A stretch of 21,575 nucleotides of DNA from a virus. The position numbers and the translations under genes were made by a program. Each line of letters begins with the position of its first letter. Position 1 is the first letter of the stretch. The notes beneath the pieces were generated by a model, which saw only the letters and a list, made by a program, of their open reading frames with translations, searched no databases and was not told the origin of the DNA. Shown here piece by piece: positions 5,043-12,384 of the stretch. The DNA lies in the IMG/VR virus record IMGVR_UViG_3300029995_000046, positions 1-21,575 of that record; one strand, given 5' to 3'.

Positions 5043-6110
5043 TTACTCCTCCACGGTGGTGGAAATGCCCAACTTCTGACTTTCTGACAAGAAACTCGCC
5101 TCTAATTTCTTGTATCGTTCTGGATCATCTTTTTTCATGGCCGACAATGCTTCATGATCTTTTTTGTAATAGTCCAGATAAGTCCATTTGGCACGTTCGT
5201 CAGTTTCCTTTTCTTTTCCATCACCCATACCTAGCACGAAAGTGTTCAAACCATCAGCTCCCTTCAAGAGCTCAAGCTGTTTTTTTGTACCATCGTAATC
5301 CAACATAGCTCCGGCACGGTAAATACCTTTTTGCGGTTCGGTGATAGCACCACGGTTAAAATGCAAAGCAACCAATGCATCCGCTTTCGCTTCAGCAGTT
5401 TCTGTGCTGGGTGTCTGCGCTTCCGGTTTCACACGGGCATTCAACATCTCACTGGTAGTACCATAATCGGAGAATGCCAGCTTTTTGAGTGACGGAATTT
5501 CTGTATCCTGAACTACGCCACGTTCTTTGTGTAGCAACACAAGATTGTCGGCAGCTAATTGTTTTGAGACTGCAAGCTCGGCTTGCATTTGCTCAACTGT
5601 TTTTTCTACTTTATCCATTTTTGGAGTGTTTGAGATTAAATCTAATTTATATTTGCCACCTTCCGGTGTTGATAATTTTACCGCATTTTTTTGTCCTGGA
5701 ACTGTGACCAACGAAACTTCGAGTAAGTCCCATTTCAAGACTGTTCGCCTTGTTTGTCCGGAAATAATATATTTGGGGTCTTCCGACTCTTCAATTGGGA
5801 TTATGTTCAGGCTGACAGCACTCATGTAGCCATCTTTATACTTCCAGTAAAGCTTCACGGCATCTTCGTCATTCCTGTCAAATTCCACAGAGCCTGTGAA
5901 TAATCCGTTTTCTTTTTTTAGATCAAGCCACTTACCAACCGGAATCATATAGGTGGAATGCTGAACACAACAAACTGGATTTTTTTCAAATCCTGAAATA
6001 TCACCACCTTCTACAAGCAATCTCCAACCATATCTATTAACCGATTCATCACATATAGTAAATGGAATTATCAAAGCTCCATCCGGTAATTTTCGTTCTT
6101 GTTTCGCCAT
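5043..6110 (-). CDS. Prohead protease with C-terminal scaffold (Mu gpI/Z-like)
   Basis: The frame extends to a TTG at 6143, but the ATG at 6110 (MAKQERKLPDGAL) is the more natural start and gives 355 residues. Residues 1-160 are an HK97-type serine protease. I see His51 in CVQHSTYMIPVGKW, Ser97 in GYMSAVSLNI, and Glu131 in LLEVSLVTVPGQKNA, matching the His-Ser-acid arrangement of the U35/S78 families. Residues 165-290 are a helical, charged scaffold-like region. The C-terminus is Lys/Glu-rich. An in-frame ATG at 5618 (MDKVEKTVEQ) marks the start of the scaffold part and could give a separate scaffold protein, as Mu Z nests in Mu I. It lies upstream of the capsid gene, as expected. Confidence 0.82.
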   Translation of the reverse strand: MAKQERKLPDGALIIPFTICDESVNRYGWRLLVEGGDISGFEKNPVCCVQHSTYMIPVGKWLDLKKENGLFTGSVEFDRNDEDAVKLYWKYKDGYMSAVSLNIIPIEESEDPKYIISGQTRRTVLKWDLLEVSLVTVPGQKNAVKLSTPEGGKYKLDLISNTPKMDKVEKTVEQMQAELAVSKQLAADNLVLLHKERGVVQDTEIPSLKKLAFSDYGTTSEMLNARVKPEAQTPSTETAEAKADALVALHFNRGAITEPQKGIYRAGAMLDYDGTKKQLELLKGADGLNTFVLGMGDGKEKETDERAKWTYLDYYKKDHEALSAMKKDDPERYKKLEASFLSESQKLGISTTVEE

Positions 6111-9169: not shown

Positions 9170-10441
9170 ATGAAAAAGCAAAAAGACTTCAATAAATTAG
9201 CATTCGCAGCAAAGCCAACGGCCAATACACAAACAACAGGGCGCAATGCTAAGAAACCACCAATAACCGACACACGCGGTTCTGATACTATGGAAATTGA
9301 TTATTTCCGTCTGTATGAATCTATGTACCGGAAAGAAGTAACAGACTGGCAAAACGCCCGTATGTCACGCTATGATCCGTTTAATCCAGTAACCTACCTG
9401 ATACAACAACTGTACAAAGATGCGATGTTAGATAACCACCTTCAGGGAGCTATCCAACAACGTATTTTGCGTGTTGTCAATAAAATTGCCGTATTCAAGG
9501 ATGCTGAAGGTAAACAGGACGATGAGCGTTCAAAACAAATCAATAAAAAGTGGTTTCGCCATGCCATTCGTAAAGCAATGGAGTCAAAGTTCTATGAATA
9601 TAGTATGTTCCTGATATCCGATTTCACTTCGGGAAGCATTCGCAAACTCATTGATATACCTCGCGAAAACATTATTCCTGAAAAAGGACTATTATTGAAA
9701 GAAGCCCATAACCCTTCGGGAATTGCTATAAGGTACGAAGATTTTTCAAACTTTCTTATTTACATTCAACTATCACCTGATAAAGGCGGTATCCTGGAAC
9801 GCATCGCTCCAATGACAATTTACAAACGTCATTCATGGGCTTCGTGGGATGAGTTTGAGCAAATATTCGGTGTGCCGATCCGTATTGCAAAAACAATGAT
9901 CAACACCAAAAAGCACAAAGATGAGCTTCAGGAGTGGCTTCAAATGATGGGAACGTCAAGCTATGGTATATTTGACAAACAAACTGAAATTGAAATAAAA
10001 GAGAATCAGAAAACTGATTCTTTCAATGTGTTTGACAAGAAAATTGAACGTATAAACAAAGAAATGTCCAAAGGTATTGTAGGGCAAACCATGACTATGG
10101 ATGATGGTTCTAGCAAGTCACAAGCTGATGTTCACCTTCAAATGTTCCAGGATATAACCGATGCTGACATAGCTGATGTTCAGGACTGGATTAATGATGA
10201 TTTCGTTCCTATTTTGCGTAATCTCGGTTTTGATATACCGGAAGGCTACACAGTGGAGCTTCAGGCTAAAAAGAACGTGAAAGCTAGTGAAAAGATTAAG
10301 GAAGACAGTGAGTTGCTTAAATATGGTTATAACCTTACAACTGAATACATCGAAAGTACTTACGGTGTAAAGCTTGACAAAGAGAACCCAAAAACCCAAC
10401 CGGCTAAATCAAGTAACCAGTCGCTCAGTTTTTTCGATTAG
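9170..10441 (+). CDS. DUF935 portal protein (Mu gp29-like)
   Basis: This 423-residue protein matches the DUF935 portal family. After a short disordered N-terminus it shows DYFRLYESMYRKEVTDW, MLDNHLQGAIQQRILRV, SMFLISDFTSGSIRKL, and the conserved stretch MTIYKRHSWASWDEFEQIFG with GVPIRIAKT. Twelve copies would form the ring through which DNA enters and leaves the head. It is shorter than Mu gp29 (about 510 residues). The gene ends with codons TTT TTC GAT TAG, where TTT TTC plus the preceding T form a -1 slippery heptamer, directly followed by a large hairpin. Most ribosomes should stop here, and some may shift into the MuF frame (see the frameshift entry). Confidence 0.88.
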   Translation: MKKQKDFNKLAFAAKPTANTQTTGRNAKKPPITDTRGSDTMEIDYFRLYESMYRKEVTDWQNARMSRYDPFNPVTYLIQQLYKDAMLDNHLQGAIQQRILRVVNKIAVFKDAEGKQDDERSKQINKKWFRHAIRKAMESKFYEYSMFLISDFTSGSIRKLIDIPRENIIPEKGLLLKEAHNPSGIAIRYEDFSNFLIYIQLSPDKGGILERIAPMTIYKRHSWASWDEFEQIFGVPIRIAKTMINTKKHKDELQEWLQMMGTSSYGIFDKQTEIEIKENQKTDSFNVFDKKIERINKEMSKGIVGQTMTMDDGSSKSQADVHLQMFQDITDADIADVQDWINDDFVPILRNLGFDIPEGYTVELQAKKNVKASEKIKEDSELLKYGYNLTTEYIESTYGVKLDKENPKTQPAKSSNQSLSFFD

Positions 10442-10516
10442 CCCCGGACTCTAACACGGCCTTTTCCAAAGTTTCTTCCTACTTTGGAAAAGGTCTAAAC
10501 CTAAGAGTACCCGGGG
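10429..10516 (+). promoter_or_regulatory. Predicted -1 programmed frameshift signal, portal to MuF
   Basis: The slippery heptamer T TTT TTC (10429-10435) is in the portal frame, two codons before the stop. After a 6-base spacer (10436-10441) comes a nested hairpin. Its outer stem pairs CCCCGG (10442-10447) with CCGGGG (10511-10516), and ACTCT (10448-10452) with AGAGT (10504-10508), leaving a 2-base bulge. Its inner stem is 13 perfect base pairs, 10460-10472 with 10481-10493, closing an 8-base loop. Slipping back one base leads into the MuF frame, open from 10417 to 11757 without ATG, GTG or TTG before 10567. All the standard elements are visible in the sequence; that frameshifting occurs is inferred. 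Confidence 0.75.
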
Positions 10517-10566
10517 TAATTGACACCGATCTACTTTATTTCAACAATGATTTAGAAACACGCCAA

Positions 10567-11760
10567 TTGGCTATTTCCGAATATCCAAGTTTGCAACTGG
10601 CAAACCGTCAAACGGATTTAAACGGTTCTATAGAGCAAATATGGCAGGGCAAAGGCAGTGAACTCATGCGCCCTATTTTCGACACGTACAACGACGATTT
10701 ACATCGTGCGGTTGCATCCGATAACGAAGAGACTGCGAAGCTATTTAAAAACAATGTGAGCCGTTTAGCAGCTGCAAAGGCCAATTATACCATTCAGCAA
10801 TTAGAACGCTGTAAAGCCGACATAAATGGCGTTGTACGAAGCAAAGAAGAGTATCAGAAAGCCGCTAAAGTAGTAATAGGCCGTGCAAACCGTGCCCAGG
10901 CAACTGAATACAATACCACTTCGCATCGGTGTCGTGTAGCCAAACAATGGGCGCAATTTACAAAGGAAAAACGCCTATTCCCAAACATTGAATGGTTGAG
11001 AACCCGATCAGCTTCACCGCGTGAACTTCACCTGACATACGTTGGCCGTATTTGGTCAATGGATGATTCGTTCCTGAAGGATAATTCACCGGGTTGTATT
11101 TACAACTGTAAATGCGATTGGAGAAATACCGATAAAGCAGCTACTGATAACACCGATATTACACCGGTTCCTGTTTCTCCAGGGCTCGAAGGTAATCCGT
11201 ATTACACCAATGAGATTTTTACGGATAAACACCCTTACTTCAGTCGTGTAGAAAAGCATATACCTGATGTTGGAGTTCTGTATAATCCGGATGAGGTTGT
11301 TTACTTAAACAAAACTACAGCTTCAGGAGTAAAATACAAGGAACATTTCCTTTGTTTGAAAGAGCCTGAAACGGTTGAAAATGCAAAGATTGTAGAAGCA
11401 TTGGTAAAAAATAAAGTGGTGAAAGAAGCTACTTTATTACCTCGTATTCACCAGTCTGAAGTTGAATTGAGAACACGTTACTATGGCAAAGCATACCAGT
11501 CAATACATAGAACAAAATGCCCTGATTGCATGGGTGATGGTAGTTTACTTGAATTTAAGTCGACTGATGCGAACCATTTGAGCAAAAATGTTTTAAAAGC
11601 CTCTCAACAGGCCGATATCGCCGTGATCAAATGTACTGATGTAGTTTCAAAATCATATTTGGAGCGTTTTGCATCATGGCAGTTTGCATTGAAAGATAGA
11701 GCAAACCTAAAAAAGATTGTAGTAATGACCGGGGAAGATGTTCACGTATTCATAAAATGA
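10567..11760 (+). CDS. MuF head morphogenesis protein with C-terminal nuclease-like toxin domain
   Basis: The first canonical start codon is the TTG at 10567 (397 residues), but coding-like sequence in this frame (RLAPDSNTAFSKVSSYFGKG and onward) runs back to the portal end, so translation is probably by -1 frameshift, giving an 863-residue fusion. Numbered from the TTG, residues 60-190 are the MuF domain, with PRELHLTYVGRIW and Cys177, Cys181, Cys183 of the usual C-terminal cysteine motif. Residues from about 270 are a separate domain: Pro319-Asp320, then Glu329-Phe-Lys331, then KASQQAD at 344-350. This PD...ExK...Q pattern resembles CdiA-type tRNase/nuclease toxin domains. MuF proteins enter the head and can be ejected with DNA. 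A short frame overlaps the stop. Confidence 0.8.
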   Translation: MAISEYPSLQLANRQTDLNGSIEQIWQGKGSELMRPIFDTYNDDLHRAVASDNEETAKLFKNNVSRLAAAKANYTIQQLERCKADINGVVRSKEEYQKAAKVVIGRANRAQATEYNTTSHRCRVAKQWAQFTKEKRLFPNIEWLRTRSASPRELHLTYVGRIWSMDDSFLKDNSPGCIYNCKCDWRNTDKAATDNTDITPVPVSPGLEGNPYYTNEIFTDKHPYFSRVEKHIPDVGVLYNPDEVVYLNKTTASGVKYKEHFLCLKEPETVENAKIVEALVKNKVVKEATLLPRIHQSEVELRTRYYGKAYQSIHRTKCPDCMGDGSLLEFKSTDANHLSKNVLKASQQADIAVIKCTDVVSKSYLERFASWQFALKDRANLKKIVVMTGEDVHVFIK

Positions 11761-11867
11761 ACCGTGGCGAACAAGTTATAAATAACCTATTCGCCACGGG
11801 TAGCGTCGAAGTACGCAACTCCGACTCCACAAAAGTACAATATATTTTGAATAATTGTACTCACTAA
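11757..11867 (+). CDS. Short reading frame overlapping the MuF stop
   Basis: A 36-residue frame begins MNRGEQVINNLF and shares ATGA with the MuF stop codon, a common sign of translational coupling. It ends in TAA at 11865-11867, before the gpG gene. It has no membrane helix or recognised motif, and is polar with a short helical start. Position makes it a candidate immunity or accessory peptide for the toxin-like domain upstream, but immunity proteins are normally larger, and a perfect 10-bp inverted repeat lies inside the frame. It may be a remnant. Confidence in coding is low. Confidence 0.3.
   Translation: MNRGEQVINNLFATGSVEVRNSDSTKVQYILNNCTH
11762..11799 (+). repeat. Perfect 10-bp inverted repeat after MuF
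   Basis: CCGTGGCGAA (11762-11771) and TTCGCCACGG (11790-11799) can pair over 10 bp around an 18-base AT-rich loop. It starts immediately after the MuF stop codon and lies inside the 36-residue frame. No U-run follows, so it is not a normal terminator. It could reduce expression of the downstream gpG gene or protect the MuF mRNA end. Confidence 0.55.
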
Positions 11868-11888: not shown

Positions 11889-12353
11889 ATGGACGGAGAC
11901 CAATTTGCAAGCCACTTACTAAACATGTCCGAAGAGGCCAGACGCTTCATTGATGACGATGCACCGGTGATAATGGGTAAGAATGCCAGGGATGTATTTA
12001 CAGAGAACTTCCAGAACGAAGGTTTTATGGACACACAAAACGAATCGTGGGAAGAGGTAAAGCGCCGGCTAAATCCAAAAACAAAAGGTGCAGCTGCTAC
12101 ACGTAAGATTCTAACCGGTGATACGGGTGATTTGGGAATGAGTATTGAATATCTAAACGCCGCTAATGGCGAAGTTCACATGGTTTCCGACAAAGAGTAC
12201 TCCAAAGCACAAAATGAAGGCACTACGAACGCCGGACGCAATCATAACGTCACTATTCCGGCTCGTAAGTTCATTGGTGATTCTGCTGAAGTGGATAAAC
12301 GGAACATTGAGGCCTTTGAAAGAAAGCTGAATGATTTAGACAAACAGCCCTGA
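11889..12353 (+). CDS. Phage virion morphogenesis protein (Mu gpG-like)
   Basis: The 154-residue protein matches the gpG/PF05069 virion morphogenesis family. Conserved segments visible are LTGDTGDLGMSIEY, then VHMVSDKEYSKAQNEGTTNA, then HNVTIPARKFIGDS near the C-terminus. Homologs act in tail completion or head-tail joining in Mu- and P2-like phages. It is the last gene of the rightward operon, and its stop codon overlaps the left side of the terminator hairpin. The 128 bases after MuF hold only a short frame and a hairpin. Length is normal for the family (about 150-160 residues). Confidence 0.88.
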   Translation: MDGDQFASHLLNMSEEARRFIDDDAPVIMGKNARDVFTENFQNEGFMDTQNESWEEVKRRLNPKTKGAAATRKILTGDTGDLGMSIEYLNAANGEVHMVSDKEYSKAQNEGTTNAGRNHNVTIPARKFIGDSAEVDKRNIEAFERKLNDLDKQP

Positions 12354-12375
12354 GCAGAATTGCCCAGGGCTGTTT
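12342..12375. terminator. Bidirectional terminator between convergent operons
   Basis: AAACAGCCCTG (12342-12352) pairs perfectly with CAGGGCTGTTT (12365-12375). Inside, GCA pairs with TGC around a 4-base loop. On the plus strand the stem is followed by TTTAATTTAAT. On the minus strand it is followed by a shorter U-containing stretch. It sits exactly where the rightward late operon meets the leftward early operon, and overlaps the gpG stop codon. Confidence 0.85.
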
Positions 12376-12384
12376 AATTTAATA

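Follow-up and report, generated by a model that had tools for sequence, protein, structure and literature searches.

Here we report a putative recoding signal at the junction of the portal gene and the adjoining MuF reading frame in the IMG/VR virus record IMGVR_UViG_3300029995_000046. The window, that is, the whole stretch of DNA analysed, comprises positions 1 to 21,575 of this record (21,575 nt). We consider the site very probably (probability about 0.93) a canonical -1 programmed ribosomal frameshift signal, by which part of the portal protein would be fused to MuF. Such a frameshift had been predicted from the sequence of the window; it is strongly supported by a conserved slippery heptamer, its spacer, a paired hairpin and fixed synonymous sites in related phages. 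The features at the junction, all on the plus strand, are:

9170..10441 (+): portal open reading frame (ORF), 423 amino acids (aa), Portal_Mu (PF06074, E 3.2e-70), the default product
10429..10435 (+): slippery heptamer T TTT TTC, in the zero frame of the portal and in X XXY YYZ phase, read from the sequence
10436..10441 (+): spacer GATTAG, 6 nt, read from the sequence; includes the portal stop codon TAG (10439-10441)
10442..10516 (+): putative stimulatory nested hairpin; fold of -44.2 kcal/mol, covariation in the clade of the window
10435..11760 (+): MuF coding region in the -1 frame, 441 aa plus stop; PF04233, phrog_19194, coding selection in the -1 frame
11390..11757 (+): C-terminal domain of MuF, weakly CdiA_C-like (CdiA_C E 0.017, below the cut-off)

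Results

The portal gene of the window ends in the codons AGT TTT TTC GAT TAG. In the hairpin that follows, the outer stem is formed by CCCCGG and ACTCT (10442-10452), which pair with AGAGT..CCGGGG (10504-10516) and leave a 2-nt bulge at 10509-10510, and the inner stem by GGCCTTTTCCAAAGT (10458-10472) and ACTTTGGAAAAGGTC (10481-10495), with 13 perfect base pairs, or 15 if two extra pairs, one of them G-U, are counted. The predicted RNA fold (-44.2 kcal/mol, z -6.58) was matched in stability by none of the shuffled sequences (0/200), and an Rfam scan of the window matched no family. The -1 frame is open from 10417, directly after a TAA at 10414-10416, to 11757, and its first ATG, GTG or TTG is the TTG at 10567. 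Every checked detail of the original prediction was recovered from the sequence, namely the heptamer in the portal frame, the 6-base spacer, the nested hairpin (an 11-bp outer stem with a 2-base bulge and a 13-bp perfect inner stem), the MuF frame in -1, open from 10417 and free of start codons until 10567, and the length of the predicted slip product of 863 residues (422 + 441). The elements of a canonical -1 frameshift signal are present: a zero-frame X XXY YYZ heptamer, a stable structure about 5-9 nt downstream (with the spacer of 6 nt in the window), and a -1 frame that is open, coding from the site and kept across relatives.

All 18 near relatives (viral contigs, MuF identity 100 to 44%) have kept TTTTTTC, a portal stop one codon on, MuF in -1 and a hairpin, the sequence of which varies by group (CCCCATCT...AGATGGGG in L007, GCCCTGAA...TTCAGGGC in L017). 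For a wider survey, portal loci were drawn from IMG/VR, named phages and whole genomes, with four loci coming from one scan of genome contigs, and the 85 distinct junctions with a recognised MuF were classified. An in-frame slippery heptamer lay exactly at -10 from the portal stop in 60 of the 85 (TTTTTTC 47, TTTTTTT 5, GGGAAAG 3, AAAAAAG 2, CCCTTTC 2, AAATTTT 1), and MuF was in -1 and open across the heptamer at every one of these (60/60). The heptamer was found at other upstream distances in 11/85 junctions, nine of them convincing (TTTTTTC at -22 to -52); the A-run heptamers of L122 and L131 are uncertain. L132 has a TTTAAAG at -10 by chance and its real TTTTTTC at -52. The remaining junctions were single fused ORFs (5/85) or separate genes (9/85). 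Among 723 other ORFs from the same loci, used as controls, there was no TTTTTTC at -10 (0/723), and any XXX(AAA or TTT)Z occurred at -10 in 20/723.

Hairpins were evaluated with an anchored-stem score (threshold >=18) and gene controls; this score replaced a fixed 50-nt fold window, which missed the long hairpins of the window clade (median z -1.7). Scores of at least 18 were found for 95% of the 60 junctions versus 9.5% of a control sample of 400 genes (Mann-Whitney P 4e-29, which is not a true probability because the rows are related). The stem started 5-6 nt past the heptamer in 52/60 junctions, and 44 different 5' stem arms occurred among the 60. A search of 395 whole genomes with the pattern TTTTTTCG plus a GCCCC/GGGGC hairpin returned four matches, three of which are portal-MuF junctions. 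The conservation of heptamer and hairpin proposed as a check of the original prediction was found in dozens of related phages, in position and base pairing and not in sequence. Assembly error was rejected, since many contigs and prophages show this arrangement independently of one another.

Base pairing and codon choice at the junction are both constrained. In one clade, represented by 17 distinct sequences, pairing in the 8-bp stem is complete (100% of 136 cells), with 20 double-sided changes and a covariation of 0.443, compared with 0.150 when shuffled and at most 0.072 when slid. The larger hairpin of the window clade has a covariation of 0.178 versus 0.072 in shuffles. Synonymous-site constraint, the other sequence check proposed with the original prediction, was likewise found, the synonymous positions of the heptamer being fixed: the first Phe codon is TTT in 52/52 and the second TTC in 49/55 (usage elsewhere in these portals: TTT 527, TTC 518), and the codon preceding the pair has T as its last base in 52/52, although it specifies any of seven residues (Ser, Pro, Asn, Asp, Gly, Arg or Cys); the rows behind these counts are related and do not represent independent events. 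Judged by these codons, selection on the amino acids alone cannot explain the fixed heptamer.

The -1 frame reads as protein directly from the heptamer, where the peptide FFR[LIV][SAG]P is conserved in most of the family. Between the hairpin and the first start codon, pairwise codon differences within the window clade gave a ratio of synonymous to nonsynonymous changes of 169:135 in the -1 frame, versus 50:262 in frame 0, which has stops; by this measure the -1 frame is under purifying selection upstream of any start codon. The TTG at 10567 is not conserved, and the first starts lie at +221 (L010), +209 (L038) and +134 (L032); in L037, a member of another clade, the first start is located 308 nt past the stop, inside the conserved MuF.

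The signal is also present in named phages. In the hankyphage (Bacteroides phage p00, L127), MuF is annotated as a separate gene with an ATG that overlaps the portal stop. In the same region (5226-5273), a TTTTTTC is located at -46 with GCCCCG...CGGGGC behind it, and conceptual translation in the -1 frame gives FFRESPGERRGSFRMVINDLY, running on across the annotated ATG. Two hankyphage homologues (L119 and L077) have kept the heptamer and hairpin and have no start codon at the position of the ATG. From this comparison, the hankyphage would also make a portal-MuF fusion, and its MuF start is probably misannotated. The hankyphage MuF includes a toxin domain of the Gln_amidase type (E 1e-9), and mass spectrometry of the hankyphage capsid has been published (PMC12135933). 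In Elizabethkingia phage TCUEAP3, MuF is annotated to start about 275 nt downstream, and TTTTTTC at -22 is accompanied by a perfect stem (GCTCCTCA/TGAGGAGC).

The arrangement is inverted in seven records of Porphyromonas gingivalis phages (L121, L130, L185-L189), in which portal and MuF form one ORF of about 853 residues, with a PBECR2 nuclease domain after MuF in both P. gingivalis phages scanned. At the homologous position, this ORF has retained T TTT TTC, the 6-nt spacer and the GCCCCGTC/GGCGGGGC stem. The -1 frame opens with FFRVGP or FFRIGP, like that of the frameshift phages, and stops about 20 codons on, so that a slip would truncate the fusion to a plain portal. The inverted arrangement suggests that possession of both products matters.

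In a portal tree obtained by a quick search and including some long branches, heptamer junctions are spread throughout one large clade of Bacteroidota portals, and the more distant Mu-type portals that form the outgroup come with separate genes and lack the heptamer. In Mu (gp29/gp30) and Mushu, portal and MuF are separate, overlapping genes, also with no heptamer. Among whole-genome loci, all readable portals scoring >250 on the clade profile were of the heptamer type or fused, and none of those scoring <150 had a heptamer joining MuF. According to the tree, single-ORF fusions of portal and MuF arose at least four times independently, and a separate MuF about three times within the clade. If the fusion protein is the functional product, such repeated exchange of the slip for a genuine gene fusion is to be expected. 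The fused ORFs of L072, L133 and L161 have in-frame slippery heptamers near the junction and no clear hairpin; we give these heptamers little weight, as the chance expectation is not small. L077 has a -43-type junction and MuF, and its portal belongs to a clade whose other junctions are of the -10 type; the frameshift signal may travel together with MuF by recombination.

The portal of the window is of the Mu type (Portal_Mu PF06074, 237.5 bits versus a curated cut-off of 23.9). The -1 ORF scored 27.9 bits against MuF PF04233, slightly below the cut-off of 29.6, and matched phrog_19194 with an E value of 2.7e-40; relatives reached PF04233 scores of 32.6 (L015), 32.2 (L017) and 62.6 bits (L106). 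Natural portal-MuF fusions exist, because one protein family (phrog_35074, 890 positions) matches the portal and the MuF of the window, in that order. A toxin-like domain had been proposed for MuF. This holds well for relatives, where toxin domains follow MuF (Gln_amidase in L119 and the hankyphage, PBECR2 in the P. gingivalis phages), and is weak in the window, where the match to CdiA_C had an E value of 0.017, below the cut-off. Structure prediction was confident only for residues 290-441 of the -1 part (pLDDT about 90), the predicted C-terminal fold matched no PDB fold at E<=0.001, and a PADLOC scan of the window gave no match. In L103 (5191-7041), the MuF ORF has an intein/Hint-like insertion directly after the MuF domain match.

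The junction is located between a gp36-like gene and a neck gene, inside portal plus MuF. Two further hairpins were observed downstream. A strong one (CCGTGGCGAA...TTCGCCACGG, 11758-11860) lies immediately 3' of the stop codon of MuF, within the 128 nt that separate MuF from the neck gene. A terminator-like one (CAGCCCTG...CAGGGCTG and then TTTAATTT, 12345-12380) is found where the neck gene ends, with convergent gene blocks on either side.

Discussion

Several observations weigh against a frameshift as the general route to MuF. In some members, a start codon is situated close to the portal stop (the hankyphage ATG at -4, a TTG at +8 in L015), so that reinitiation could add MuF in those members. 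The stems of L022 and L015, and those of L081, L101 and L109, which have long loops, are weak or uncertain. Relatives with separate genes (L040, L096, L117, L118) indicate that not all such phages depend on a fusion. Finally, the loci were sampled mostly by likeness to the window portal, and their sequences are interrelated.

MuF might instead arise as a protein of its own, through termination-reinitiation or through initiation at an internal site (TTG 10567 or a non-AUG codon), the hairpin serving only to position or slow ribosomes at the portal stop. In the outgroup and in some nested relatives, MuF is indeed a separate gene with an overlapping or nearby start (Mu gp29/gp30, Mushu, TAATG in L040, ATG in L117 and L118), and the ATG of the hankyphage at -4 fits as well. 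For the window, however, we regard reinitiation as very unlikely: its MuF frame has no ATG, GTG or TTG for 128 nt from the start of the stop codon, the unconserved TTG at 10567 is preceded by conserved MuF sequence under purifying selection, the first start of L037 is reached only at +308, and the hankyphage ATG is missing from L119 and L077, both of which have heptamer and hairpin. Reinitiation also leaves unexplained a heptamer that is fixed in phase and at synonymous sites. A normal MuF start with no slippery site, which the original prediction had named as evidence to the contrary, was encountered only in outgroups and a few nested lineages from which heptamer and hairpin have disappeared jointly.

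Long runs of T or A can cause slippage of RNA polymerase, and the commonest site has six T, so that mRNAs with an altered number of T could join both frames. Six T are short for polymerase slippage, however, and some sites have no long homopolymer at all (CCCTTTC in L023 and L123, GGGAAAG in L064, L066 and L156, AAATTTT in L159). As transcriptional slippage moreover predicts neither a fixed codon phase nor a spacer of 5-6 nt nor a covarying hairpin, it is the least probable of the explanations considered, with hardly any likelihood left.

Ribosomal frameshifting itself could be so efficient that the fusion predominates over the short portal; this is a variant of the preferred explanation and does not exclude it. 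The strong hairpins point in this direction, as do the P. gingivalis phages, which encode the fusion in frame 0 and retain a site that would yield the short form, and the in-frame fusions of at least four lineages, in which MuF-rich rings must therefore be tolerated. We nevertheless consider efficient slippage rather unlikely, although far less so than the two preceding explanations: the short portal is the default product in most members, and the MuF protein of SPP1 is present in only 1-2 copies (PMC6316719). Efficiency is not readable from the sequence.

The course of a -1 frameshift at the junction, including the slippage itself, its rate, the subunit stoichiometry and the delivery, can be inferred as follows. 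When ribosomes on the portal mRNA arrive at T TTT TTC, the tRNAs of the P and A sites would be paired with TTT and TTC, respectively; the hairpin, with its base 5-6 nt downstream, would stall the ribosomes there, and a fraction would slip back by one nucleotide. Ribosomes that do not slip would read GAT TAG and release the 423-aa portal, and those that do would read CGA TTA GCC... through the hairpin and make the 863-aa portal-MuF fusion. Since MuF has no start of its own, the rate of slippage would set the number of MuF-bearing portal subunits per ring. By analogy with SPP1, in which the MuF protein gp7 is present in 1-2 copies per capsid (PMC6316719, PMC5576092), about one or a few of the 12 portal subunits may carry MuF. 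In this way the C-terminal domain of MuF would be anchored at the portal, in a position to accompany the DNA into the cell. We lean, with some reserve, towards the view that in the Mu-like phages of Bacteroidota the conserved slip determines how much portal-MuF(-toxin) is made relative to plain portal, so that the mixed ring contains a set count of effector domains, and that this ratio is under selection. On this view, the P. gingivalis phages retained site and hairpin through a rearrangement of the reading frames, with an inverted logic in which the fusion is the default and plain portal is the product of the slip.

The mechanism appears to be of a known kind, and its conserved, family-wide use on portal and MuF undescribed in the literature searched. 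The frameshift of the tail-assembly chaperones (lambda G/GT; SPP1 17.5/17.5*) likewise involves a late gene of tailed phages and a -1 slip near the end of the upstream ORF, and the heptamer of SPP1 17.5, UUUUUUC, is identical to that of the window (PMC6316719). The tail chaperones differ in the gene pair concerned and in the location of the site, which lies between the genes for the major tail protein and the tape measure protein, unlike the site in the window; the portal-MuF junction has a covarying hairpin 5-6 nt downstream. In phage A2, as reportedly described by Garcia and colleagues in 2004 (cited in PMC10885494), a -1 slip lengthens the major head protein; there too a longer form of a capsid protein arises, but the protein extended is said to be the major head protein and to gain no MuF or toxin-type domain. 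The arrangement implied in the P. gingivalis phages is that of the host gene dnaX (tau/gamma), where the long product is encoded in frame and a -1 slip at A AAA AAG gives a truncated one.

In Brevibacillus phage Emery, gp4/gp5 (KC595516) is annotated with a slippage join. The 2014 description assigned the slip to a head morphogenesis protein and did not recognise the portal (PMC4168068). On re-reading, gp4 is portal-like (Portal_T4 E 5e-4, below the cut-off) and the -1 extension is MuF (PF04233 E 3.5e-12), with the site T TTT TTA at -13. The join (L194, 3171-5350) is an independent, unrecognised case of a portal-like protein plus MuF outside the Bacteroidota. Unlike the family of the window, it is a single case with another portal family and no obvious strong hairpin.

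Fusions of portal and MuF in single genes, known from Microbacterium phages (PMC7302621) and found here in P. gingivalis phages, join the same two domains in one polypeptide; they differ in that MuF would be present on all subunits, barring truncation by a slip, and no portal-MuF frameshift was described for them. MuF polymorphic toxins have a variable C-terminal toxin and adjoin the portal gene in temperate phages, including those of Bacteroidales (PMC5576092, PMC11699363), with MuFs carrying Bxa and Gln deamidase among them (PMC11699363); both papers treat MuF as a gene of its own, and the word 'frameshift' occurs in neither main text. In the paper on the frameshift finder PRFect, MuF-like genes come up only where false positives are discussed (PMC10885494). 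We found no description of a portal-MuF frameshift in the literature searched, which covered few subscription papers and preprints. The original prediction had considered such a fusion undescribed, and this stands with the qualification that the Emery record annotates a slip of this kind in which the portal was not recognised.

Conservation of the signal extends over a large family of Bacteroidota viruses, among them well-studied gut phages in which it had previously gone unnoticed. With it, one more frameshift in a structural protein would join the few known from phages, and it provides a new set for frameshift finders, which at present are mainly aware of tail chaperones. If the proposed mechanism is true, it explains how low-copy MuF and toxin domains are counted and attached to the portal, and many annotated MuF genes of Bacteroidota phages would lack their true N-terminus and represent the C-terminal part of a portal fusion. 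Silent mutants of the heptamer in the tractable hankyphage offer a genetic handle on the need for MuF in DNA ejection and toxin delivery.
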